Shown: positions 2,118-45,464 of the stretch, in pieces | Numbering within the stretch: position 1 is the first letter of the stretch | How the letters are laid out: each line of letters opens with the position of its first letter | NCBI RefSeq assembly: GCF_026210795.1 | Contig: NC_089429.1 | Span: 868,001 to 932,000 of the forward strand | Reading direction: 5' to 3' | DNA: 64,000 bases | From: Rhizophagus irregularis | Taxonomy: Eukaryota > Glomeromycota > Glomeromycetes > Glomerales > Glomeraceae | Translations under genes and position numbers: made by a program | The notes under the pieces: model-generated | The model's database searches: none | What the model saw: only the letters and a program-made list of their open reading frames with translations | What the model was told of the DNA's origin: nothing

Positions 2118-2471
2118 TAACCAATTACAGTATTTTATTTATTTATTTTATGTGAAGCCGGACAGACTATTAAACAGGACATATACCACACGTGAGTTAT
2201 CCTACTTCTAGCTATCATCTATCACCAGGGCGGACCCAAACTTCTTTAAAAATGTTGGAACCAGCCTGATCCTCCTCCACTACCGAAAGAAGAACAGGAA
2301 CCACAATTAAAAAGTGAACTAATTAACCCGTATTTTTCTTTCAACCATCAAGGTCACCACCTGTAAATACTGTCATAGGTGGAATGATTCACACTGTTTG
2401 TAATTGTTAATATCTATTTTAATACGAACCAAAAAAATTCAAAAAATGAATTACAAAATATAGAAACTAAA

Positions 2472-4565
2472 CTATTTCAAAATACGAAATTTAAAAATTA
2501 GGTCTATATTAGCGGGTAAGAAGTCTTCTTCTTTAGTATCCCTACAATCGAAAGTACAAATTTTTTTTGTTAAAGGTGTAAGATCTCCATAATAATTATA
2601 GTGATTATGTCTGGCGCGATGCTTTTTTGGGCGACATTCTATTATTTTCGTGTCATCGGAGGTATCACTGAGATCATCTTTTACGTATTGAATATCATTT
2701 GGGCGAATAATAGCGCAGTACGGTTTTAAAGGGTAGTGTTCATCCCTGTATTGTTGTCCAAAATCTGTTATCAAATTGTTGAGATGTCTTGAAGCGACTG
2801 TTCGTTTGTCGTTGCTTTTCTTCGTAGATGCTCCATACGCAAAATTGCGAATACTGGCCATACGGTCATCAAAATTATCATTCATACGAGTAAAAAACTT
2901 TATAGCATTAATACGTCTAAGGTAATGTTTGGCGGAGGTATTATGATCCTTAATGTCTTTAATGACATTTAACCTTTCATTAAGACGATCACGAACTCTG
3001 ATCTCACTGATGCGATCTTCATCTAAACCTAGCATATATGCGTCTCTCAAGGATAGCTGAATTGTAGAGTCTTGTAATAAAAGTACGGCATCTATGTATT
3101 CTGATGCACCTTTACCATAATGTTCGTCAATAAGATTTGCGATATACCAATCCCTATAAGAGTTTTCTGATGTATCATCCCTGCCATTGTTGGCTGAAGA
3201 GTCATCCTCTTCATCTGAATTCTGAATCTTGATGACACTGCGTGATGCAGGAGTAATGTGAGGAGGAAGAATCCTATCTTCAGAAAGATGTAAAAGAGCG
3301 CAGTTCCGATCGTATGGAAAACGGAATAAGGGAACGGTTGGGAGATGAAGGATCCGTGTATAAATCTTTTGATACAGATGAAAAAGGAACTTCCTTTGAT
3401 TCGCAAGTTTAATCTTGTGGCAGAGTTTAAGGGCCATCCTAGATTTAGGTTTATTACCATTGAAAATACGTTGACAAGATCGGTCAAAATGAGCTTTTTG
3501 CCGTGCAGCAGTACGTAAATTAGAACTTAAAATGCAAGAAAAGTTCTCATAAATCTTGGTATACATAGGACCAGTAGCCTTGTTAGGGGGTAAAATTGAG
3601 TCAAGGTTGTGTGCTTCATAACGCGTTGTATAAGAGATGCCCAATCGATTCGAAAAAATCTTTTGCCTTGAGTTATTGTTATATTTCTCGTAAATAATGT
3701 TGGCGTGAAAACTTTTGTGATGAATAATATTGATCTCAGGTGCTGATGTTGCCTTATCCTCTGAGAGTGTGTTTTTTTCTTGAGTGATAGCCGAATGGTG
3801 TTGGATGCAAGCGTGTCGATTAAAATTTTTAACAAAAGGGCACGGTATATGGCATGGTGTTGTTTTTTGATGAGGAAACTTTTTTGTAGGTAGGTGATTA
3901 CAAGCTACATAGATACCAAAGTGAAATCTGTATCGTTTATAAGAGAAGTTGAAAAAAGTTTTGGTAATATTGTTGCTGCACGTGATTTTTCCTTCACGTA
4001 ATGCTATCAGATTGATTCTATCTAACAACTTGAGTCGTATCATGTTAAAAAATTTGTTCTGAATACGCCGAGGAATGACTCGTTGATGTAAAAAAAAGTG
4101 CGTGAGGCATTTCGATATTTGAAATCGATGATTAGGTAATTTGCTTGTGGAATAATACCGAATTGGGGTTGATAACATATGATGATCGTTTATGTATATT
4201 TTAAGGTGAATTTCATTGGTGTCTGGTATTTGATCGACAACCTCAAAAAAGAAACTTTTTGAACGCCTACATTCATAGATCTTATTATAACCTGCTTTGG
4301 ACGCAGCAGTCACATGAAATTTTTTGAAAGAGACCAAAAAAGAGAAGGTCGAAAGTATTGGTGAGGGTAAAGGAGCTTTGACTATGATAGTCGGAAGTGC
4401 GTTATCCTGTGGTTTAATATTCATCCTTAAAACTTTATCTTTAGAAAGTCCGCCTTCAGGAATGTTTCTTCTGTTATCGAAGTGTACATCCAACTGCGGA
4501 TAAGGTTCCAAAGGTTCATATGAGGCCAAGGAAAAGTTGGTATTTTTGTTGTTTGAAGATGACAT
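2472..4565 (-). CDS. Unrecognised element-encoded protein, 697 aa (copy 1)
   Basis: I do not recognise the family. Residues of roughly 80 to 330 align well with the 644-aa protein at 43344..45278. Shared blocks include GYNKIY, RRSKSFFFE, LTHFF, TKTFFNFSYK and RLGIS. A Cys/His-rich stretch (CNH, then HIPCPF, then RHACIQHH) could bind zinc. The protein is basic through the first two thirds. The C-terminal third is acidic, then charged and helical-looking, and differs from the paralog except for a short PYCAI-like remnant. I see no reverse transcriptase, endonuclease or DDE motif. It is the only ORF in a unit bounded by a target-site duplication. It may be a nucleic-acid-binding ORF1-like protein (inference). 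The ORF is uninterrupted, so the copy could be recent. Confidence 0.7.
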   Translation of the reverse strand: MSSSNNKNTNFSLASYEPLEPYPQLDVHFDNRRNIPEGGLSKDKVLRMNIKPQDNALPTIIVKAPLPSPILSTFSFLVSFKKFHVTAASKAGYNKIYECRRSKSFFFEVVDQIPDTNEIHLKIYINDHHMLSTPIRYYSTSKLPNHRFQISKCLTHFFLHQRVIPRRIQNKFFNMIRLKLLDRINLIALREGKITCSNNITKTFFNFSYKRYRFHFGIYVACNHLPTKKFPHQKTTPCHIPCPFVKNFNRHACIQHHSAITQEKNTLSEDKATSAPEINIIHHKSFHANIIYEKYNNNSRQKIFSNRLGISYTTRYEAHNLDSILPPNKATGPMYTKIYENFSCILSSNLRTAARQKAHFDRSCQRIFNGNKPKSRMALKLCHKIKLANQRKFLFHLYQKIYTRILHLPTVPLFRFPYDRNCALLHLSEDRILPPHITPASRSVIKIQNSDEEDDSSANNGRDDTSENSYRDWYIANLIDEHYGKGASEYIDAVLLLQDSTIQLSLRDAYMLGLDEDRISEIRVRDRLNERLNVIKDIKDHNTSAKHYLRRINAIKFFTRMNDNFDDRMASIRNFAYGASTKKSNDKRTVASRHLNNLITDFGQQYRDEHYPLKPYCAIIRPNDIQYVKDDLSDTSDDTKIIECRPKKHRARHNHYNYYGDLTPLTKKICTFDCRDTKEEDFLPANIDLIFKFRILK

Positions 4566-4600
4566 AGTCCCTTAATATTGGGATAAGATAAGAATAAAAC

Positions 4601-4631
4601 CTTGTATGAGAACCAAGACGCCCAACAGGGC
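4601..4631 (-). promoter_or_regulatory. Paired hairpins in the element's 5' leader (copy 1)
   Basis: Just upstream of the start codon the minus strand can form two small stem-loops. One has a 4-bp CTTG/CAAG stem with a 9-base loop (4601..4617). The other has a GCCC/GGGC stem with a 4-base loop (4620..4631). The same two hairpins occur at the same place in copy 2 (45311..45343). There the first stem is CTCG/CGAG, so one pair changed T-A to C-G while pairing was kept. A conserved leader RNA structure is plausible, but its role is unknown. Confidence 0.45.
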
Positions 4632-5025
4632 CTTTTTCCCCTTAAAGTTTTCGTGAAAAACTATAGAAAAATAACCAAGCGCAAAATACTGCGGAAAACT
4701 AACAAAATAAAAAAAAAGGGGAAAGAGTTTTTTTTTTTAACCAATTACAGTATATTTTATTGTCTGGAGGACGATATCAAAAAATTTGTGGTCACGGTTC
4801 ACCCACGTGATCCTCAGCCAATAAAATCGCCTCCCATTTCCTAGTTATACAATTTAGCCTTATTATTTATCTTCATTATATTTCACCAATTTTTAACAAG
4901 CTATTATTTAAGCTTAAGAAAAAAATATTAATAAGCTTATTTGAAAATGAGAACGAATAATTTTATGTAGAAATCGGAGTATTATACGTTATGAACTATA
5001 ATACTATAACCATTAGGGTATTAGG

Positions 5026-5150: not shown

Positions 5151-7627
5151 ACCGTAACCTACTATTAGAGATGTTAGCAATCTGAAATGCGAATACATCG
5201 CTAGTACTTAAAATATTGTAATTAGTTATATATTGACACTTTATAATGATTATTCTGGAAATAATCCATTGATTCCTCATAATGATTATCCTGGAAATAA
5301 TCAATCAATTTCTCATAACAGTTTTCTGGAAACAATCTATTGAGTGAAATATGTCTTCGTCAATTTAGGACCCCGAAATATACATAAAAGGGTCAGGTCA
5401 GAGTTTGCGTATAATGAGTCAAAAAATCATGTAGATCATTCCTTTTATGGATAATTCCAGCCAAAATAATATTTCCTAATTTAGATAATGGCTGAAATTA
5501 TCGTAATTCCGGCCCTGAAAGAATGCGTATTTTGGACCACTTCTGGACCTGACCTCTACATATATATTTCGGGGTCCTGTCAATTTCATTTAAATTATTC
5601 TAGGCTTACACCTTTTTGATTTATAATTTACTGCGCCTGCGATAAATCATAAGAATTCAGAGATTTTTTTTTTAGTTACTATTCCCTCCAAAGTATCAAC
5701 TATAGTCTTAACCTCAAAGTATCATAAATTTCAAATTATTTTCATTAAATAATAATAAAAATTTAATTCTTAAATTATTTTTATATTTTGTTGTTTTAAT
5801 CAATATTTATCTATCAAATAAGGATTTATTAAAAAGAAAAAAACTTTATTACATTCAGTTTGTTACGTCATTATCCAAACATTTATTTTGTGATTAATTA
5901 GCATTGTATAGCCAAATTATTGAACGTAATATCTACTAGATATTTATTAAAATAGCATTCGGAATTATTTTTCTTAAAAGATTTAACGCATGATTCCAGA
6001 AACAACATTCTTGTACAATCACAATAAAATCAAATAGACTACCAGTTGTTTCATTTTTAATTAGGATTTTTTTTCTTTATAAAACATAGAACGTGATATG
6101 AGGGAATCAAAAAAAAGTTTAGGAAATATAGTAAAGTATTACGGCATGATATAATATAAATGTATGGTACGATTAATAATTTACAAGTACGAGCGGGCAT
6201 GATGTTAATCGTGCTAGAAATTAGTAAATTATTAACTATTGATGCTATAATCTGATGATAGAATTGAATAAGACAATCAAAGTAAGGAAAAATGTTACAA
6301 AAAAAAATTAATATAAGCATTTAGAAAGTTAAAGTTTCAACTCCGAATAAAAAAATTAAGTTAGAGTTGAAACAAGTATTAATAAATAATTTAACTATAT
6401 CAAGCTTTAGAAACTTTTTTGATAAAAATAATGGCAATTTTGCATTAGACAATTAGATAACAAATTTTTGCATACTTACATGCTTAAAATTATAATATCA
6501 ATTATAATAATGTCAAATAAATAAAGTTTCAATTCATTATTTCATCATAGATGAAAATGATCAACATTTTTAACATTTGTAGAGAGAACTAACTTAATAC
6601 ATTTATAAATCATTCAAATATAAACTTGTATAAATATTATAAATATTTTATATATATAACATGTTTCGTATAAAACCAATACGATATGATCAGTCAATGG
6701 ATGATATCATAACTGTAACTGTGGAACGCAACTATTTTAATAATACTGAAAGTTTGATCATCCTTTTAAATGAAAAATTTTTTTGCAATTTTAAATGTTT
6801 CTTTTAAAAAAAATTTTTAAGTCCATAATTTGGTTTAATATAACAAAATTAATAAAATGCGGAATAAAGGAATGAAAATGTAAAAACATCTGCTAAGTGA
6901 AATATAAATTTTATAAAGTTCATCAAAGTTTAGAAAGTGATTTAAATACTACGTTAATTATAAATTTTACTCATAATCATATTTTTTTCAAAAGAACTTT
7001 CTGAATTCTTTGGGATGACTTAGATGACTTACCCTGAGATTTACATTTTAACCAGAAGATTCTAGTAAAAAAATTGAACTTGTGATAATAACATAACGAT
7101 AACGATAACGAAAATACTCCATAAAGCCCCATAATGTTCATTTTTACGTTACAGTATTTGTTAGTAATGCACGTATTATTATCTAAAAAATTTATCTTTT
7201 GTTACAGATTTTAAAGTTTTAATTCTTTCGGAAAAGTATATAGCACAAATCACGAATTTAGTCTAAAAGAGTAATTCTCAATGCCGAATTTTTTTACTTT
7301 TAGAAGTTGGAATTCCAAAAAATTTGGATCTTTTCGACAACATGATTATATTTTAAACACTGCACTTAACAATTAGTAAATAAACATAAAAAATGTGTAT
7401 ATTTACTAGCAGTTATCAACAAAAAATATTATTTGTTTATTTCTTATGAATCTATTTTAAATAAATCTTTTAAAGCTATTAATGACCAATATCGGCAAAC
7501 AATGCTATTACTTTGATATACAATACTTATAAAAAAAACAAATGAAATAAATGAAATAAATTTTATATCTATAACAGTATTTTGCTTATTTATTTTATTT
7601 AAACATTTAAGCAAAAATATTCTCAAT
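5151..7627. other. Gene-free AT-rich stretch containing one MITE
   Basis: Apart from the 212-base MITE at 5367..5578, this stretch holds AT-rich sequence without a supported gene. Short open frames on the minus strand near 6.1-6.3 kb and 7.4-7.6 kb are low-complexity and lack homologous features. The last part is downstream of the kinase-Sel1 stop codon. Confidence 0.45.
5367..5578. mobile_element. MITE related to the 4.65-kb transposon at 49988..54640
   Basis: The unit is 212 bases long. It starts with aggaccccgaaata and ends with tatttcggggtcct, an inverted repeat that continues for about 30 bases with few mismatches. It is flanked by perfect 8-base duplications gtcaattt (5359..5366 and 5579..5586). 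The same termini and an 8-base duplication bound the transposase-bearing element at 49988..54640, so this is best read as a non-autonomous relative. It has no coding capacity. Its centre contains an imperfect palindrome. Confidence 0.85.
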
Positions 7628-10600
7628 TTACTTTGCATGAATTTGTTCTAATCTATTTTGAGCATTTTGATTTCCTTGCAATGCAGATTGTTTATACCAG
7701 TAAATTGCTTGATTTATATCTTTAACAATCACTTCTCCATTCTCATACATAAAAGCAAGATTATATTGAGCTATACTAATATTTCCTAAATCTGCTGATT
7801 TTTGAAATAATTCAAATGCCTTTTTTTCATCAATTTCAGTTTCAATTCCTTTTTTATAACAATTACCTAAATTATTCATTCCATATGCATTTCCTAAATC
7901 TGCTGATTTTTGATATAATTCAAATGCCTTTTTTACATCAATATTAGTTCCAATTCCTTTTTTATAACAATTACCTAAATTATTTATTCCACCTGCATTT
8001 CCTAAATCTGCTGATTTTTGGTATAATTCAAATGCCTTTTTTTCATCAATATCAGTTCCAATTCCTTTTTTATAACAATTACCTAAATGATTTATTCCAC
8101 CTGCATTTCCTAAATCTGCTGATTTTTGAAATAATTCAAATGCCTTTTTTTCATCAATATCAGTTCCAATTCCTTTTTCATAACAATTACCTAAATTATT
8201 CATTCCATATGCATTTCCTAAATCTGCTGATTTTTGATATAATTCAAATGCCTTTTTTACATCAATATCAGTTCCAATTCCTTTTTTATAACAATTACCT
8301 AAATGATTTATTCCACCTGCATTTCCTAAATCTGCTGATTTTTGAAATAATTCAAATGCCTTTTTTTCATCAATATCAGTTCCAATTCCTTTTTCATAAC
8401 AATTACCTAAATTATTCATTCCATATGCATTTCCTAAATCTGCTGATTTTTGATATAATTCAAATGCCTTTTTTACATCAATATCAGTTCCAATTCCTTT
8501 TTTATAACAATTACCTAAATGATTTATTCCACCTGCATTTCCTAAATCTGCTGATTTTTGAAATAATTCAAATGCCTTTTTTTCATCAATATCAGTTCCA
8601 ATTCCTTTTTCATAACAATCACCTAAATTACTTATTCCAGTTGCATTTTCTAAATCTGCTGATTTTTGGTATAATTCAAATGCCTTTTTTACATCAATAT
8701 CAGTTCCAATTCCTTTTTTATAACAACCACCTAAATGATTTATTCCACCTGCATTTCTTAAATCTGCTGACTTTTGATATAATTCAAATGCCTTTTTTTC
8801 ATCAATATCAGTTCCAATTCCTTTTTTATAACAACCACCTAAATGATTTATTCCACCTGCATTTCCTAAATCTGCTGACTTTTGATATAATTCAAATGCC
8901 TTTTTTTCATCAATATAAGTTCCAATTCCTTTTTTATAACAATTACCTAAATTATTCATTCCACTTGTATTTCCTAAATCTGCTGATTTTTGATATAATT
9001 CAAATGCCTTTTTTTCATCAATATCAGTTCCAATTCCTTTTTTATAACAATCACCTAAATTACTTATTCCAGTTGCATTTCCTAAATCTGCTGATTTTTG
9101 ATATAATTCAAATGCCTTTTTTTTATCAATATCAGTTCCAATTCCTTTTTTATAACAATAACCTAAATTACTTATTCCATTTGAATATTCTCTTTCAGCT
9201 AATTTTTTAAATAATTCAAAAGCTTTATCATCATCTTTATAAACACCATTCCCATGTATATAACAGCAACCAAGGTTATATTGTGCTATAATATTTCCTG
9301 AATTTGCAGCTATCTGATATAATTCAAATGCCTTTTTTTTATCAATATTAATTTCAATTCCTAAATAATTAAAATCTCCAAGTAAAACAATAGAATTTGA
9401 ATGATTTTGATTATTTAATAACCAAATATAAATTTCCTGTGAAGTCATATTATGATTATTAAGATAATTATAAATACATAGTCTTTCTAATTCTTCATAT
9501 TCTACGCCTGCCTTATCAGAAAGTTCAACAATTTCATCAACCATCACCTTAAAATTATTATTTGATGATATTGAAGAATCTATTTCTTTAGTATTCATCT
9601 TGTTAAATTCTTGAATAAATTTGGATAATTCCCCATGTGATGAATTATTTATAGGATCTTCAAAAGCATTCAAATCGAGTTGTTGTTTACTGGATAATTG
9701 GTTTGTATAAGAATCATTTGCCCGAAAATCTTTTATAATCATGTTATTATTATTCTTCAGAATAATTGCATTTAATTTAAAAACCACCTGATTGATAGTT
9801 GGACGATTATCTGGTTCATTATTCCAACAATCTAAAAAAAATAGATAGAATTAATTTAACATTAATATAAACATAAAATTAATTATTAATTATATTTACC
9901 AGTATAAATATTCACATAATCTTCGGGTGTATCAGGAATGGGTGTCTCTCTAAGGCCTTGTGATATATTAATAGCTAAACAAACGTCATATGGTTTACCT
10001 TCAGTATAAAAAGGAGGATTGCTACTAGATATCTCCCATAAAAGTACTCCAATACTATAAATATCACTTTTTTTATTTAATTTATAATCTTGATTACTGA
10101 AACTTTTTGGGTCAATATAAGGAATTACTCCAAATAATTTCGTTGAAGAAAGGTTGGATGATTCTTCAATTCTTTTTGATAAACCAAAATCTGCTAATTT
10201 AACTATATTTTGATGAACTAATACATTTTTGGAATGCTATTAATATTATTAAATACAATAAATTTATTAATTACAATTCAACAACAAACATGAAATAACA
10301 AAATGTAAACAAATGAATTACCAAATCACGGTGAATAATTCCTTCATCGTGTAAGCATAATATAGCACAAGCCAACTGAAATGCCATATTAAACTTATTA
10401 TTCCAAGTAAGATTATCAAAATGTTCCTTCAAATATTCTCGAAGAGTACCTCCATTTGCATATTCCATTACTAACCAATATTTTTTTGAATTATCAACCT
10501 GATTTTCTTTGTAAAAAAAAAATAAATAAAACAATAAATTTATATTTTACAATCAAATTATGCATGAAAAGAAAGTATATTGTACCTGTTGCAATACCAC

Positions 10601-12260: not shown

Positions 12261-12373
12261 AGCCATAACCTTACTTAAAAAAACACTATATAAATGCTGT
12301 AATTTCACCTTGATAATTTTTACATAATTTCACTTTGAAATTAAATTTAATATTTAAAAATAATTTATTAAAT

Positions 12374-14629
12374 ATGGCAGATGATAGTAGTTATATTCTA
12401 CCTTCAAGTGATGATGACTTTAGTGAAGAAATTACTAATGAAATGGTCCAAATACCAGAATTACCAGTAGCTACAAGTGAAATAGAACAAATAAATGTAA
12501 TTAGTATACCTGACTCAACAGTTCAAATATCAGCTAAATTACAAACAAAAGTAAGTAGTTGGGTATGGAAATATTTTATTAAAGATTATAATAATAAAGG
12601 TGAAATACGTGCATATTGTCAATTTGTAATGGAAAATGGAGATAAATGTACAAAGAATTATAAATATGATGGATCTACAGGAAACCTTAGTAGTCATATT
12701 ATTAAACATGGAATTATACCACCTACAGCAGCAGAAAATTTACCTGCTGCTGAAATTAAATCAAAGCCTATACAATCTATTGATAATATTGGACAAAAAG
12801 AAAAGGAAGAATCTACATTACGATGGATTCTATTGACAACACAACCCCTTTCAACTGTAATTCACAAAGCCTATATTGAACATATGCATATCATAGATCC
12901 AGAATTTATAGTTCCTGGAGAGAGGAAAATTAGAATGATGATTGCTCAAAGTTATGGATATAATAGAAACAAATTAAAGCAATTTTTAAAATCTGCCCAA
13001 TCCATTTCTTTGACCACTGATTTGTGGTCTTCTAGGTCAAAACATGGTTATTTAGGTTTAACAGCAACTTGGATTAATCAAAATTTTGAAATAACAGATA
13101 TTTTACTTGAAATATCCTATTTTCCAGCACCACATACTGCAGATAAAATTGCACAAACTATTAAAATGATTATCCAAAAATGGGAAATTGAAAACCTTAT
13201 AGTATCAATTACAACTGACAATGGTGCTAATGTAGTAGCTGCTATTCGTGAATTAGCACCAATTGAAAGGTTTTCCTGTGCAGCACATACTTTACAATTA
13301 GCTATTGGAAAGGGTTTAAAACTTGTGGAAGATTTAGCAATACGTGCAAGACAGTTAATTAATTTTTTTTCAACTCAAAAACAGATTGAACGATTAGTTA
13401 AAATACAAAAAGATAATGGTTATGAGGAGCAATTACATTTAATACAAGATATTCCCACTAGGTAAATAAAAATTTTAAATCTTTAATTTTGTTTACAAAT
13501 TACAATATAATGCTAATATATTTAATTTTATTTCAATTATTTAAGATGGAATTCAACTTATTTAGCATGGGATCGTCTTATTTTCCTTCAATGTGCTATT
13601 CTTCAGCTTAATGTAAATTTATCTTGTTCTTTAATACGTGAAGAAAAAGCTGATAGTATCAAATTGAAAAAAATTATGTTGAGTGATAATGAATGGGAAT
13701 TACTAGATGAATTATGTAATATTTTGTCACCATTTGAAAAAGCTACACGAGATTTGTCTGGAAATACTTATGTTACATTAAGTCAAGTGGTTCCTATTAT
13801 TACAAGACTTACAAATTCTTTAAATCCATCTGGTAATTTATATGAAGAAGAACCTGATGATAGTTTTAATGATTTAGAAGAAGAAAATTCAACTAACCAG
13901 CAAACTAATTATGATAATATTAGAGAAACTTTAGAAAATGTAAAGAAAAATATTTACAGAAGTTTGAGATACTATTGGAAAATACCAAACGAGTTTGGTA
14001 TTATGGCAGCACTTTTAGACCCAAGATATAAGAATCTTGATTTTATTTCTGATGATAGTATAAAGAGAAAATTTCATTCTACTTTAAGAACACGATATGA
14101 CCAATTAAAATGGGATATAAGTCAGCAAAGTATTCCATCATCACCTACAACTGTTACTTCTGCTGAAAGTTTAATTGCTGGAAGTTCAACTCCAAGTAGA
14201 TCTTTACGTGACCATAAAGCAAGACGTGAACAAAAAGCAAAAGAAGTATTTCAAAGAACAGAAATCCCTACATCATCAATGGAGGATGAAATTACAAGCT
14301 ATCTTCTTATGCCAATTGCAAGGGAAAATAAAAATCCATTAGATTGGTGGAGAGTAAAACGTGAAATTTTTCCAATTCTCTCTTTAATTGCACAAAAGTA
14401 CTTAGGTATTCCTGCTACCTCTGTAGCTTCTGAGCGACTTTTCTCTGATGCAGGAAATCATATTACATCAAAAAGAAATTCATTGGACCCTGGCCTATTG
14501 GGAAAAATGATATTTTTAAAGCGTAATATGCAAACAATGGATCATATTAATGTGTTTCCTCCAGATTTAGATGTGGAAAAGAGTAATTCAGAAGAATATT
14601 TATCTGAATGTGAATTTGAGGAATGGTAA
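12374..14629 (+). CDS. hAT family transposase, 723 aa (two exons)
   Basis: Exons 12374..13461 and 13546..14629 join through a GT..AG intron. The junction rebuilds the hAT motif IPTRWNSTYLAW exactly, which supports the splice. A BED-type zinc finger is visible near residues 60-110 (VWKYF, then paired Cys and spaced His up to SSHIIKHG). Candidate catalytic acids are in LTTDLWSS, ITTDNGAN and, near the C-terminus, ASERLFSDAG. The C-terminal hAT dimerisation region runs DWWRVKREIFP to SKRNSLDPGLLGKMIFLK. The ATG at 12374 opens the acidic N-terminus after the upstream repeats. The frame contains no stop or frameshift. It would cut and paste the surrounding element. Confidence 0.93.
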
Positions 14630-42767: not shown

Positions 42768-43343
42768 CGCATTATTAATTATTATTTATTTATTTTATGT
42801 GAAGACGGACAGACTATTAACAGGACATAAACGTAACTGTGCTATCCTACTTCTAGCTATCATCCCCCCGAAGATGGACCCGAACTTCTTTAAATCCAAT
42901 GAGCCAGAATGATCCCCTCCCCTACCAGAAAGAAACCAATGAACCGAAAGAAAGAAAATGATAAAGGACACTGACTAAATATTAAGAAGTTGTGGCAATC
43001 TACACATTATAAATAGCAAAATTCAATTAATTGACGAGCATTAATCCGTATTTTTCTTTCAACCACAAGGGTTGCCACCTGTAAATACTGTAAGAGGTGG
43101 AATGGTTTACACTATTTTAAGTTGTGAAAAATCTAACGTAAAAAAAAGGACTAAAATGCTAAAAAGCATGTACAAAAAGAAACTAATATATGTATAAGTG
43201 GTTATGTTAAAATGACTAACGAGTACTTAAGTAGTACGAGTAGAGGAACTGTTTTCTAAATCCTTTGAAGCGGATAATATACAAACTTTTTTATCTATAT
43301 GATAGCCATAGTGAGTATCTAAATTGCCATTATCTCTGGCCTT

Positions 43344-45278
43344 TCATTTAAGCGGTCGATCGTCCATGATAGCACAAGGCTGATATGCCAGACTATAATC
43401 TTTCTTATAGTATTCCATGTAAAAGATATCTTCCTCATTGCTAACCCGAGAACGTAAGTCTGCTAAGATTTCAGTATCTTCCTGTTTTTTCCGATCAAAT
43501 TCTTTTAGTTTTTGTAAGTGACATTTTTCGCGTTTTTTGCGTTCGCTGTTATTAATCGGTCCAGTTACAATTGGTAATTCAGGAGGTACTGACGATGAAA
43601 TCTCTAATAATTTCATTTCATATTCATGTTTGTGGTTTGTGACTTGCATTACAAGACTGCAAAGATTACTCCGATATTCGCCTTGATCAGGGGTGGTTTC
43701 CCATTGTATTCCAGCGTCGATTTTTCCTTGTAGATATTTGGTCCTTGATACGTGTTCATCATAAATTACTTTCATGAAGGCTAACCAGCCATCACTGCCG
43801 ACTGCAAGCGGTTGTAAATTCTTTTTCCAGATTTTACCACGAGAAGGTTGATTAAATCGGCCTCCTTCGTAAATATCATATGGAGGAATTAAAGGAATGT
43901 AATGTTCAGGTACATTCTCCCAAATGTTTGTATTGACTGGGGATATAGAATTAGCCGTCGGTGTAGGTGCGACAGAGCTATCGTTGCAAATCGGTTCCAC
44001 TATAGCAGGTACAGATACTGTCCTTGGTTTATGAAAAGGGATTGGAAAGGTATAATAACCTTTTGTCGGTATGACAAATCTTTTCTTGTATCGAAGATGT
44101 TTAATGGGAGTGATAAAACTTTGATTTTCTTGGAATAATAATTTGTGATGTCGTGCAACGTGGAGTTTATCATCCGGTAGCGCATTGTCATCCAACTTGG
44201 CGTTATGAAAAGTGTGTCTAATCAGACCATTAAAACGTGCTTCTTGTCTTTTCTTTACCTTTGGACAAGAACTGGGAGTGAATTGAAAATTCCCATAAGT
44301 TTTGCCATAAATAAAATCAAGTCCTTTTGTAGCAACGACGTTAGTATTATATGCGTGGTATGATGTGGTGAAAGAGATTCCCAATCGGGTCGAAAAATTC
44401 TGATGAAATTTCTTTTTAGTCCATCTGTTGTAGAGGCGAGATGCGTGGAAATCTTTGAATGTTTTGCAACGACTAAAGTCAGGAATTTTGTTATCCTTCG
44501 AAATATAGTATAGAACTAGATTCTTATGGTGGATGATACAGGCATGACGATCATGTGACATTGTAAAAGGGACCGGGATAGAGCAAGTCGCAGTAGTATT
44601 GGGAAGTAAACCTACTGTGTGAGTGTGATTGCATGGGAGGTAAATTCCAAAATAAAATCTATATTTTTTATACGAAAAATTAAAAAAAGTTTTAGTCATA
44701 TGATTATTTTTGTCTTTTTTTTGGGCACATGATCTTATAAAATCCAAACGCTCCAATAGTTTTTTACGAATAAGTGTAAAAAATTTGTCTTGCAATTTTC
44801 GAGGAATAACTTTTTGTGTTGAAAAAAAGTGCGTGAGCTGTTTCGATATTTGAAATTTGAAATTAGGGAGTCGGCTCGTGGATTCATGATTAATCGGGTT
44901 AGAGGACATATGATAATCATTTGTGTAAATCTTCAATTGAAGTTGATTGGTGTCTGGTAAATGATCAACCAGCTCAAAAAAGAAACTTTTTGAGCGCCTA
45001 AAATTGTAAATCTTGTTATAACCGGCTCTATGGTGTGGAGTCACGTGGAACTTTTCGTATTTTGTAGAAAAAATATAAGTTTTGTTAGGCGAAGAGAAAG
45101 GCCTAATATCATCAAAGTCGTTATGAAATGAAGGTGTATCCGATAAAATGTTATCAATAGGAGGTACTGTTTGTAAAGTATCATGGTTGAAAATGAAATC
45201 ATTAGGACCAGCAGGTGTATAGTCGTATCCGGGTGCAAGAGCAAAATCGTCGGCTCTTGGAAAATAAGACATAACCAA
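43344..45278 (-). CDS. Unrecognised element-encoded protein, 644 aa (copy 2)
   Basis: Residues of about 75-330 match the protein at 2472..4565, with GYNKIY, RRSKSFFFE, PDTNQ, FQISKQLTHFF, TKTFFNFSYKKYRF and RLGIS in the same order. A similar Cys/His segment is present (CNH, CSIPVPF, RHACIIHH). The C-terminal half differs: it is Pro-rich, then has a charged predicted coiled coil (NSERKKREKCHLQKLKEFDR) and ends QPCAIMDDRPLK. So the family has a conserved head and a variable tail. No polymerase or nuclease motif was recognised. The uninterrupted ORF and long intact duplications suggest the insertion is young. Function unknown. Confidence 0.7.
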   Translation of the reverse strand: MVMSYFPRADDFALAPGYDYTPAGPNDFIFNHDTLQTVPPIDNILSDTPSFHNDFDDIRPFSSPNKTYIFSTKYEKFHVTPHHRAGYNKIYNFRRSKSFFFELVDHLPDTNQLQLKIYTNDYHMSSNPINHESTSRLPNFKFQISKQLTHFFSTQKVIPRKLQDKFFTLIRKKLLERLDFIRSCAQKKDKNNHMTKTFFNFSYKKYRFYFGIYLPCNHTHTVGLLPNTTATCSIPVPFTMSHDRHACIIHHKNLVLYYISKDNKIPDFSRCKTFKDFHASRLYNRWTKKKFHQNFSTRLGISFTTSYHAYNTNVVATKGLDFIYGKTYGNFQFTPSSCPKVKKRQEARFNGLIRHTFHNAKLDDNALPDDKLHVARHHKLLFQENQSFITPIKHLRYKKRFVIPTKGYYTFPIPFHKPRTVSVPAIVEPICNDSSVAPTPTANSISPVNTNIWENVPEHYIPLIPPYDIYEGGRFNQPSRGKIWKKNLQPLAVGSDGWLAFMKVIYDEHVSRTKYLQGKIDAGIQWETTPDQGEYRSNLCSLVMQVTNHKHEYEMKLLEISSSVPPELPIVTGPINNSERKKREKCHLQKLKEFDRKKQEDTEILADLRSRVSNEEDIFYMEYYKKDYSLAYQPCAIMDDRPLK

Positions 45279-45310
45279 CCCTTAAATATGGGTATAATGA
45301 GAACAGTAAA

Positions 45311-45343
45311 ACCTCGTCTTATGCCCGAGGTGCCCTGTAGGGC
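45311..45343 (-). promoter_or_regulatory. Paired hairpins in the element's 5' leader (copy 2)
   Basis: Two stem-loops precede the start codon on the minus strand: an acctcg/cgaggt stem with a 9-base loop, and gccc/gggc around a 4-base loop. They occupy the same place and order as in copy 1, with a compensated base change in the first stem. Confidence 0.45.
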
Positions 45344-45464
45344 CTCTTCCCTTTAGTTGTTTCAAATAGAAACTAAAAAAAAGAAACTTGCACAAAATTA
45401 CTGCGGAAAATTACCGAAATGAAGGAAAAGGGGAAAGAGTTTTTCGCATTATTAATTATTATTT

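Follow-up and report, generated by a model that had tools for sequence, protein, structure and literature searches.

A 64,000-nucleotide stretch of the Rhizophagus irregularis genome (NC_089429.1, contig positions 868,001-932,000; hereafter the window) carries two related retroposon-like units, unit 1 (W1) and unit 2 (W2), both on the minus strand and each ending 3′ in AAAT repeats (Table 1). A first-pass annotation made from the sequence of the window had described perfect direct repeats of 16 and 20 bases, an AAAT-rich 3′ tail, conserved untranslated ends and one intact open reading frame (ORF) of 644-697 amino acids (aa) per unit. We find both repeat pairs in place, see the tail and the conserved untranslated 5′ and 3′ ends in both units, and read the ORFs as 697 and 644 aa (642 from ATG); their proteins are 35% identical. 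Searches of the 146.7-Mb genome (32 contigs) establish units 1 and 2 as members of an interspersed family. We propose, with a probability of roughly 0.78, that these are chimeric, non-autonomous, protein-coding retroposons moved in trans by long interspersed nuclear elements (LINEs). Each chimera would begin with a 5′ leader, followed by a single ORF that encodes a basic protein of unknown fold, a two-hairpin RNA block and a 3′ end from one of several LINE families.

Table 1. Features of the two units, in window coordinates
Feature	Position	Length or strand	Sequence or remark
Unit 1 target-site duplication, 5′ side	4738..4753	16 bp	TAACCAATTACAGTAT
Unit 1 5′ leader	4566..4737	minus	variable-length A-run, then CTCTTTCCCC...CCGCAGT
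Unit 1 ORF	2472..4565	minus	697 aa, unknown family, conserved C-C-C-H set, purifying selection
Unit 1 two-hairpin RNA block	2328..2386	minus	conserved, post-ORF; CATTCC...AAATACGG
Unit 1 LINE-type 3′ end (tail A, subtype A1) and AAAT repeats	2134..2313	minus	
Unit 1 target-site duplication, 3′ side	2118..2133	16 bp	TAACCAATTACAGTAT
Unit 2 target-site duplication, 5′ side	45445..45464	20 bp	CGCATTATTAATTATTATTT
Unit 2 5′ leader	45279..45444	minus	AAAAA, then CTCTTTCCCC...
Unit 2 ORF	43344..45278	minus	644 aa from TTG, 642 aa from in-frame ATG
Unit 2 two-hairpin RNA block	43046..43104	minus	conserved
Unit 2 LINE 3′ end (tail A, subtype A2)	42788..43026	minus	includes last codons of LINE ORF2; stop codon 43003-43005
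Unit 2 target-site duplication, 3′ side	42768..42787	20 bp	CGCATTATTAATTATTATTT

At least 65 protein stretches in the genome match the unit 1 protein (64 of 408 candidates scored; weakest listed E = 1.6e-20), and at least 50 places match the 3′ 351 bases (40 of 213 candidates scored). We oriented 24 copies: 20 chosen from the genome (L007-L026), the two window units, and L003 and L006. From 5′ to 3′ they run through an A-run of 4-14 bases (read in 19 copies), a CTCTTTC start, the leader, the ORF, the ~59-nucleotide two-hairpin block and a subfamily-specific 3′ end. Of the 24 copies scanned, 22 have this start, those of L025/L026 in variant form; it was not found in L011, and the L016 piece ends short of that position.

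Both ends and sufficient flank are available in 19 of these copies; in L011, L013, L016, L018 and L026 one end could not be placed or fell beyond the sequence piece. Exact flanking repeats of 11-21 bp border 18 of the 19 readable copies, with a mean over all 19 of 15.6 bp, as against 7.3 bp for mismatched flank pairings, where 21 of 342 reach at least 10 bp. One of the 18, that of L020, consists of a run of T's, low in complexity and weak evidence by itself, while the lone exception, L006 (8 bp), has flanks that suggest the same insertion as L003, that is, a duplicate. Tail-only or 5′-truncated copies (L001, L002, L004, L005, L027-L036) have a 13-18 bp repeat beside the match start in nine of 14 cases, compared with 1 of 182 mismatched pairs at ≥10 bp; no such repeat was found there in L004, L027, L030, L032 and L035. 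Simple-repeat tails resembling (AAAT)n or (AAAAAT)n directly precede the duplication in copies whose 3′ end was read. The duplications are not due to chance. Full-length and short copies show what target-primed reverse transcription (TPRT) would be expected to leave, and the many further copies with duplications of their own support the mode of insertion that the first-pass annotation had deduced from two. Several readable copies hold extra bases (up to ~15) between the duplication and the 5′ A-run; these, together with the variation of the A-run, could reflect 5′ slippage or filler synthesis.

On the strength of the 11-21 bp duplications, the simple tail and the absence of a corresponding Pfam enzyme, we reject an autonomous terminal inverted repeat element, a Helitron or a Crypton, although no inverted-repeat search was made. 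In the material examined, we found neither that the units lie inside a larger element with terminal inverted repeats nor that most copies lack duplications and tails, outcomes that the first-pass annotation had named as contrary to its proposal.

The 3′ ends of the family connect it to LINEs. Partners were reached through an endonuclease-family search followed by reading of the LINE 3′ ends, and they pair tail A with L089, B with L079, B′ with L078 and D with L084/L085, the best pairs being 95-99% identical. A LINE with the same 3′ tail, which the first-pass annotation had suggested seeking, thus exists for these four tails; none was found for tail C. The partners carry an ORF2 found by its endonuclease domain, and open ORF2 frames of 1967, 1975 and 2119 aa occur. 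L078 (ORF2 frame of 1975 aa) shares its 3′ end with the tails of L025 (92% over 333 columns) and L026 (99% over 151), and L079 (1967 aa) with that of L016 (95% over 298) and, more distantly, with those of L013/L014/L017 (83-93%). The L019 tail corresponds to the 3′ ends of L084 (98.5% over 203) and L085 (96% over 202), and the 3′ end of L089 to the tails of unit 2 (94% over 253 columns) and L007-L011 (93-97% over 179-194; L010, 97% over 180). The A1 tail of unit 1 is 98% identical over 170 bp to the short tail-only copy L001.

Among 33 LINE 3′-end pieces compared (L057-L070, L071-L085, L090-L093, with L089 taken separately), a long 3′ end in common with the family was seen in L078, L079, L084 and L085; L066 and L070 showed no clear element end. 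Counted with 58 of 145 listed ORF2 C-terminus rows, a related LINE ORF2 C-terminus lies immediately upstream of tail A at 4 of 49 places and of tail B at 5 of 40. As candidate partners for tail C, L090-L093 were rejected on their 3′ ends, which gave no match, and relatives of the L084 ORF2, compared by eye with tail-C places, yielded none that matched. A route through the reverse transcriptase (RT) domain (PF00078, best 150 places listed) was abandoned, all 20 translated places looking like RTs of the long terminal repeat type. Two further 3′ tail types follow the same RNA block in L094 (2690-2800) and L095 (2650-2760), and the tail types in use probably number above five. Separately, endonuclease-bearing LINE copies lie ~8.0 kb apart on the same strand at several places, among them C12:2288934/2296952, C17:3915534/3923549 and C32:2088813/2096815, as if in head-to-tail arrays of a site-specific or self-targeting LINE.

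The junctions between body and tail bear on the direction and number of these exchanges. Expressed as the start of LINE similarity relative to the last base of the LINE ORF2 stop, the junction offset is -23 in unit 2, L020 and L019, +5 in L025/L026, +14 in L016, +47/48 in unit 1 and L007-L011, +52 to +63 in L036/L006/L003 and +94 in L013/L014/L017; L012 gave no LINE match in this comparison. Unit 2, L020 and L019 retain the final codons of a LINE ORF2 together with its stop, from which we conclude that the element took up LINE sequence rather than donating it, and the different junction points of different ORF lineages argue that tails were joined several times. The tails of unit 2 and L010 are 94.5% identical over 164 bp, whereas their bodies align only in patches of 72-80%, and on the protein tree A1, A2 and B account for two each of the six tail changes. 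Together, these data point to repeated acquisition of tails.

Tail A1 also occurs alone, in ~170-bp copies with duplications at 7575-7744 of L001, 7564-7734 of L002 and 7587-7761 of L005 (oriented), and three of the four such copies read start 1-2 bases apart (GTTCCTGTTCTTC). These may represent a short element resembling a short interspersed nuclear element (SINE) or a strong reverse-transcription stop; words resembling RNA polymerase III (Pol III) boxes were noted in them by eye only. At two places, about 5780-5860 (oriented) of L030 and L032, another head (GATGTAGGTGGTCCGGGGTGGG...) is joined to tail B, which may mark a different type of element that draws on this LINE tail.

One long ORF lies between the duplications, without RT or endonuclease match. 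The 19 ORFs that we aligned, 15 of 603-828 aa and four shorter, share invariant C238, C253 and H256, with C222 conserved at ≥90%. The ratio of nonsynonymous to synonymous substitution rates (dN/dS) is 0.22-0.35 in 17 of 17 pairs, which are not independent, indicating that the ORF is maintained by purifying selection, and the protein is basic, with a net charge of +31 to +67 in all six proteins tested. In agreement with the first-pass annotation, which saw no polymerase or endonuclease motif, none of the 19 family proteins has a Pfam match of either kind, and the feature that marks an autonomous LINE, an ORF2 with endonuclease and RT, is absent from the family units. Pfam, PHROGs and NCBIfam offered no trustworthy match (best E = 0.0085, 0.013 and none, respectively), PDB sequences contained no match, and no relative was found in viral contigs or prokaryote genomes.

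Two alternatives turn on this protein. It could be an unrecognized polymerase, nuclease or transposase that renders the element autonomous, and its unknown family, a structure prediction with a mean predicted local distance difference test score (pLDDT) of 30 and four (nearly) invariant Cys/His residues that could form a metal site all leave room for such an enzyme. We consider this very improbable, as TPRT footprints and LINE 3′ ends explain movement without an enzyme of its own, no catalytic family matches credibly, and it is hard to see why an autonomous element should need the tails of other LINEs. The units could instead be copies from a family of host genes that LINEs have spread as retrogenes, with a protein that serves the host; a selected ORF would suit such a family, and R. 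irregularis has many high-copy gene families according to the excerpt of a published account (PMC8647823). This second alternative deserves equally little credence: the copies retain the same 5′ start, RNA block and LINE 3′ end instead of a plain poly-A tail, and their tails change between lineages.

The two-hairpin block was recovered at up to four mismatches in 22 of 25 copies searched (W1, W2 and L007-L026); the other three (L003, L006, L036) hold a diverged block whose first stem is changed on both sides yet still pairs (TTGTAT/ATACAA). A first-hairpin pattern with three stem positions left free per side has 132 matches in the genome, part of which were checked for the family ORF, and none when read backwards. 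All three free pairs are kept in 97 of 100 listed matches and in 23 of 26 distinct first-hairpin sequences, whereas 2000 shuffles average 12 and never exceed 18. For covariation, we aligned 12 chosen sequences, namely 11 blocks that follow the ORF and a copy from a 5′ leader; the structure was drawn from these as well. Both sides have changed in 7 of 11 stem pairs, and four of five covariation measures were reached by 0 of 500 shuffles. In the L025/L026 subfamily, the first hairpin occurs a second time, within the 5′ leader, where its stem differs in sequence but still pairs. Given this covariation, the two-hairpin block appears to be under selection for structure. It was not found in the LINEs L078, L079, L084, L085 and L089. 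Rfam returned no window match at gathering score and a weak match of L019 to a bacterial small RNA model (34.6 bits against a cut-off of 60). We also note a diverged two-hairpin block at about 2561-2619 of L059, past the 3′ end of a LINE from a different family, where no family ORF was noticed, and a 5′-leader hairpin of the family seen by eye.

The first-pass annotation had offered two explanations, an ORF1-only LINE laid out like the mammalian half-LINE HAL1 and a new class of coding retroposon, and the partner LINEs allow the two to be weighed. ORF1 genes of about 615-785 aa lie upstream of partner-type ORF2s (L086-L088, L089). In tblastn of the 19 family proteins against L086-L089, the best sense match inside ORF1 has E = 0.26, and the best row overall (E = 0.021, 25 residues in the ORF2 part of L089) is at chance level; profile comparison with three LINE ORF1s (hhalign) gives a probability of 0.03%. 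A CX2CX4HX4C knuckle is present in all three aligned LINE ORF1s and in the L089 ORF1, and in 0 of 19 family proteins. Among the matches listed, 65 family places and 150 endonuclease places, no family place comes within 9 kb of an endonuclease place, a rare exception being possible; one listed family place has an ORF2 C-terminal fragment nearby, though on the other strand. The family 5′ start motif was not found in L086-L088, whose exact 5′ ends were not determined.

These results speak against a half-LINE of the HAL1 type, in which ORF2 was lost by internal deletion, ORF1 evolved on, the parent is extinct or unsampled, and present LINEs are later tail donors only. The layout does resemble HAL1 in its one conserved ORF, LINE 3′ end and TPRT footprints, the ORF1 of HAL1 is likewise kept intact according to an excerpt of PMC3627910, and thin protein profiles (19 and 3 rows) leave room for remote homology; on balance we hold this origin to be unlikely. 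A single ORF without ORF2 and a 3′ end shared with a LINE (A, B, B′, D) are present as in HAL1, and an ORF that is the parent's ORF1 is not. The first of the two explanations is thus not supported, with no credible similarity between partner ORF1s and the family ORF, and the second fits a chimera in which captured LINE 3′ ends are joined to a coding body that seems to be unrelated.

For chimeric retroposons moved in trans, we propose the following course. A transcript starting at the CTCTTTCC leader would be made, and the encoded protein would bind its own RNA, perhaps at the hairpin block, to form a ribonucleoprotein in cis. The LINE-derived tail would be recognized by the ORF2 protein of the matching LINE, which would nick the target and reverse-transcribe the element RNA in trans, and a new tail could be gained if reverse transcription switched template to the 3′ end of another LINE or if the element inserted next to one. 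Movement in trans, as the first-pass annotation had also suggested, is consistent with the absence of a recognizable enzyme and the presence of partner LINEs with the same 3′ ends. By analogy with the ORF1 protein (ORF1p) of LINEs, the protein may be the RNA-binding partner of its own transcript, an idea we rate at slightly under even odds. Somewhat more tentative is the suggestion that the family constitutes a separate class of LINE satellites, with a structural gene and an RNA signal of LINE-independent origin. Much like a satellite virus, such an element would survive by attaching itself anew to the 3′ ends of the LINE family active at the time.

The features directly legible in the DNA are TPRT-type footprints, the lack of a recognizable RT or endonuclease gene, selection on the protein, covarying hairpins and tails (nearly) identical to LINE 3′ ends. 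Several points weigh against our proposal. Transcription, RNA binding and trans-mobilization are steps that we infer, and the structure prediction for the two window proteins reached a mean pLDDT of 30, too low to show an RNA-binding fold. The A1 tail of unit 1 is only 80% identical to L089 (186 columns), and the ORF2 of L089 is split over two frames, so that this copy is not evidence of an active enzyme. Tail C is without a partner LINE found, a listed ORF2 C-terminus adjoining it at 0 of 40 places. The protein tree needs six tail changes (minimum five), has 5 of 16 inner branches well supported, and brings some long branches together. Tails are also found on short elements (A1 alone in L001, L002 and L005; with the other head in L030 and L032), and a tail could therefore have been passed on by such an element instead of being taken straight from a LINE. 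Finally, the fifth covariation measure, further pair types, did not exceed shuffles (122 of 500).

Elsewhere in the window, a long ORF with repeated units at 7628-9787 is presumably Sel1-like, and two adjacent ORFs at 12335-14629 are taken by us to be a BED-finger/hAT-type transposase in two pieces.

To our knowledge, the known parasites of LINEs are non-coding SINEs or half-LINEs that retain the LINE's own ORF1, and the present family would be a protein-making counterpart of the usual non-coding ones. If this is true, the LINE ORF2 protein (ORF2p) can receive RNA from a retroposon protein of a second, independent kind, and 3′ ends act as interchangeable adaptors. In a single genome, related bodies carry tails from four or more LINE families, which makes the cis-preference problem, namely which RNA part and which protein decide what a LINE copies, testable by tail swapping. 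The family may also explain part of the unclassified repeats of this mycorrhizal fungus.

Partner LINEs L078, L079, L084/L085 and L089 have 3′ ends (nearly) identical to the family tails and differ in having the CCHC-bearing ORF1 (L086-L089) and the endonuclease-bearing ORF2, and in that the hairpin block was not found in them. SINEs with LINE-derived tails join a foreign 5′ body to a LINE 3′ end and insert by TPRT; they are short, Pol III-transcribed and non-coding. The family resembles them in its tail taken from a LINE, its foreign 5′ body and its insertion by TPRT, and differs in having units of 2.6-3 kb with a selected ORF of about 600-830 aa where intact. Mammalian HAL1 (half-L1) is described, in excerpts of two accounts, as LINE-derived, with a single intact ORF, no RT and presumed use of ORF2p in trans (PMC3627910, PMC5753468). 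The single intact ORF, the lack of RT and the presumed use of ORF2p in trans are shared; HAL1, however, is an L1 derivative encoding the L1 ORF1, whereas the ORF and 5′ end of the family show no relation to those partner LINEs that were examined, and its tails come from several LINE families. Drosophila HeT-A (with TAHRE/TART) is, in an excerpt of PMC5537684, a non-LTR element that encodes a structural protein only and obtains RT from elsewhere. The family likewise encodes no recognizable enzyme and has partner LINEs, and a structural role with RT supplied in trans would complete the likeness. In contrast to HeT-A, which adds to chromosome ends, it is interspersed with duplications, for example at C1:2164654 of a 7,995,222-base contig, and whereas HeT-A Gag resembles that of TAHRE, the family protein resembles no LINE protein tested. 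HeT-A Gag has CCHC knuckles, and this Gag-type motif (CX2CX4HX4C) is the one absent from all 19 family proteins. Although it lacks a defining feature of each of these systems, the family is SINE-like at its 3′ end and HeT-A/HAL1-like in coding one apparently non-enzymatic protein.

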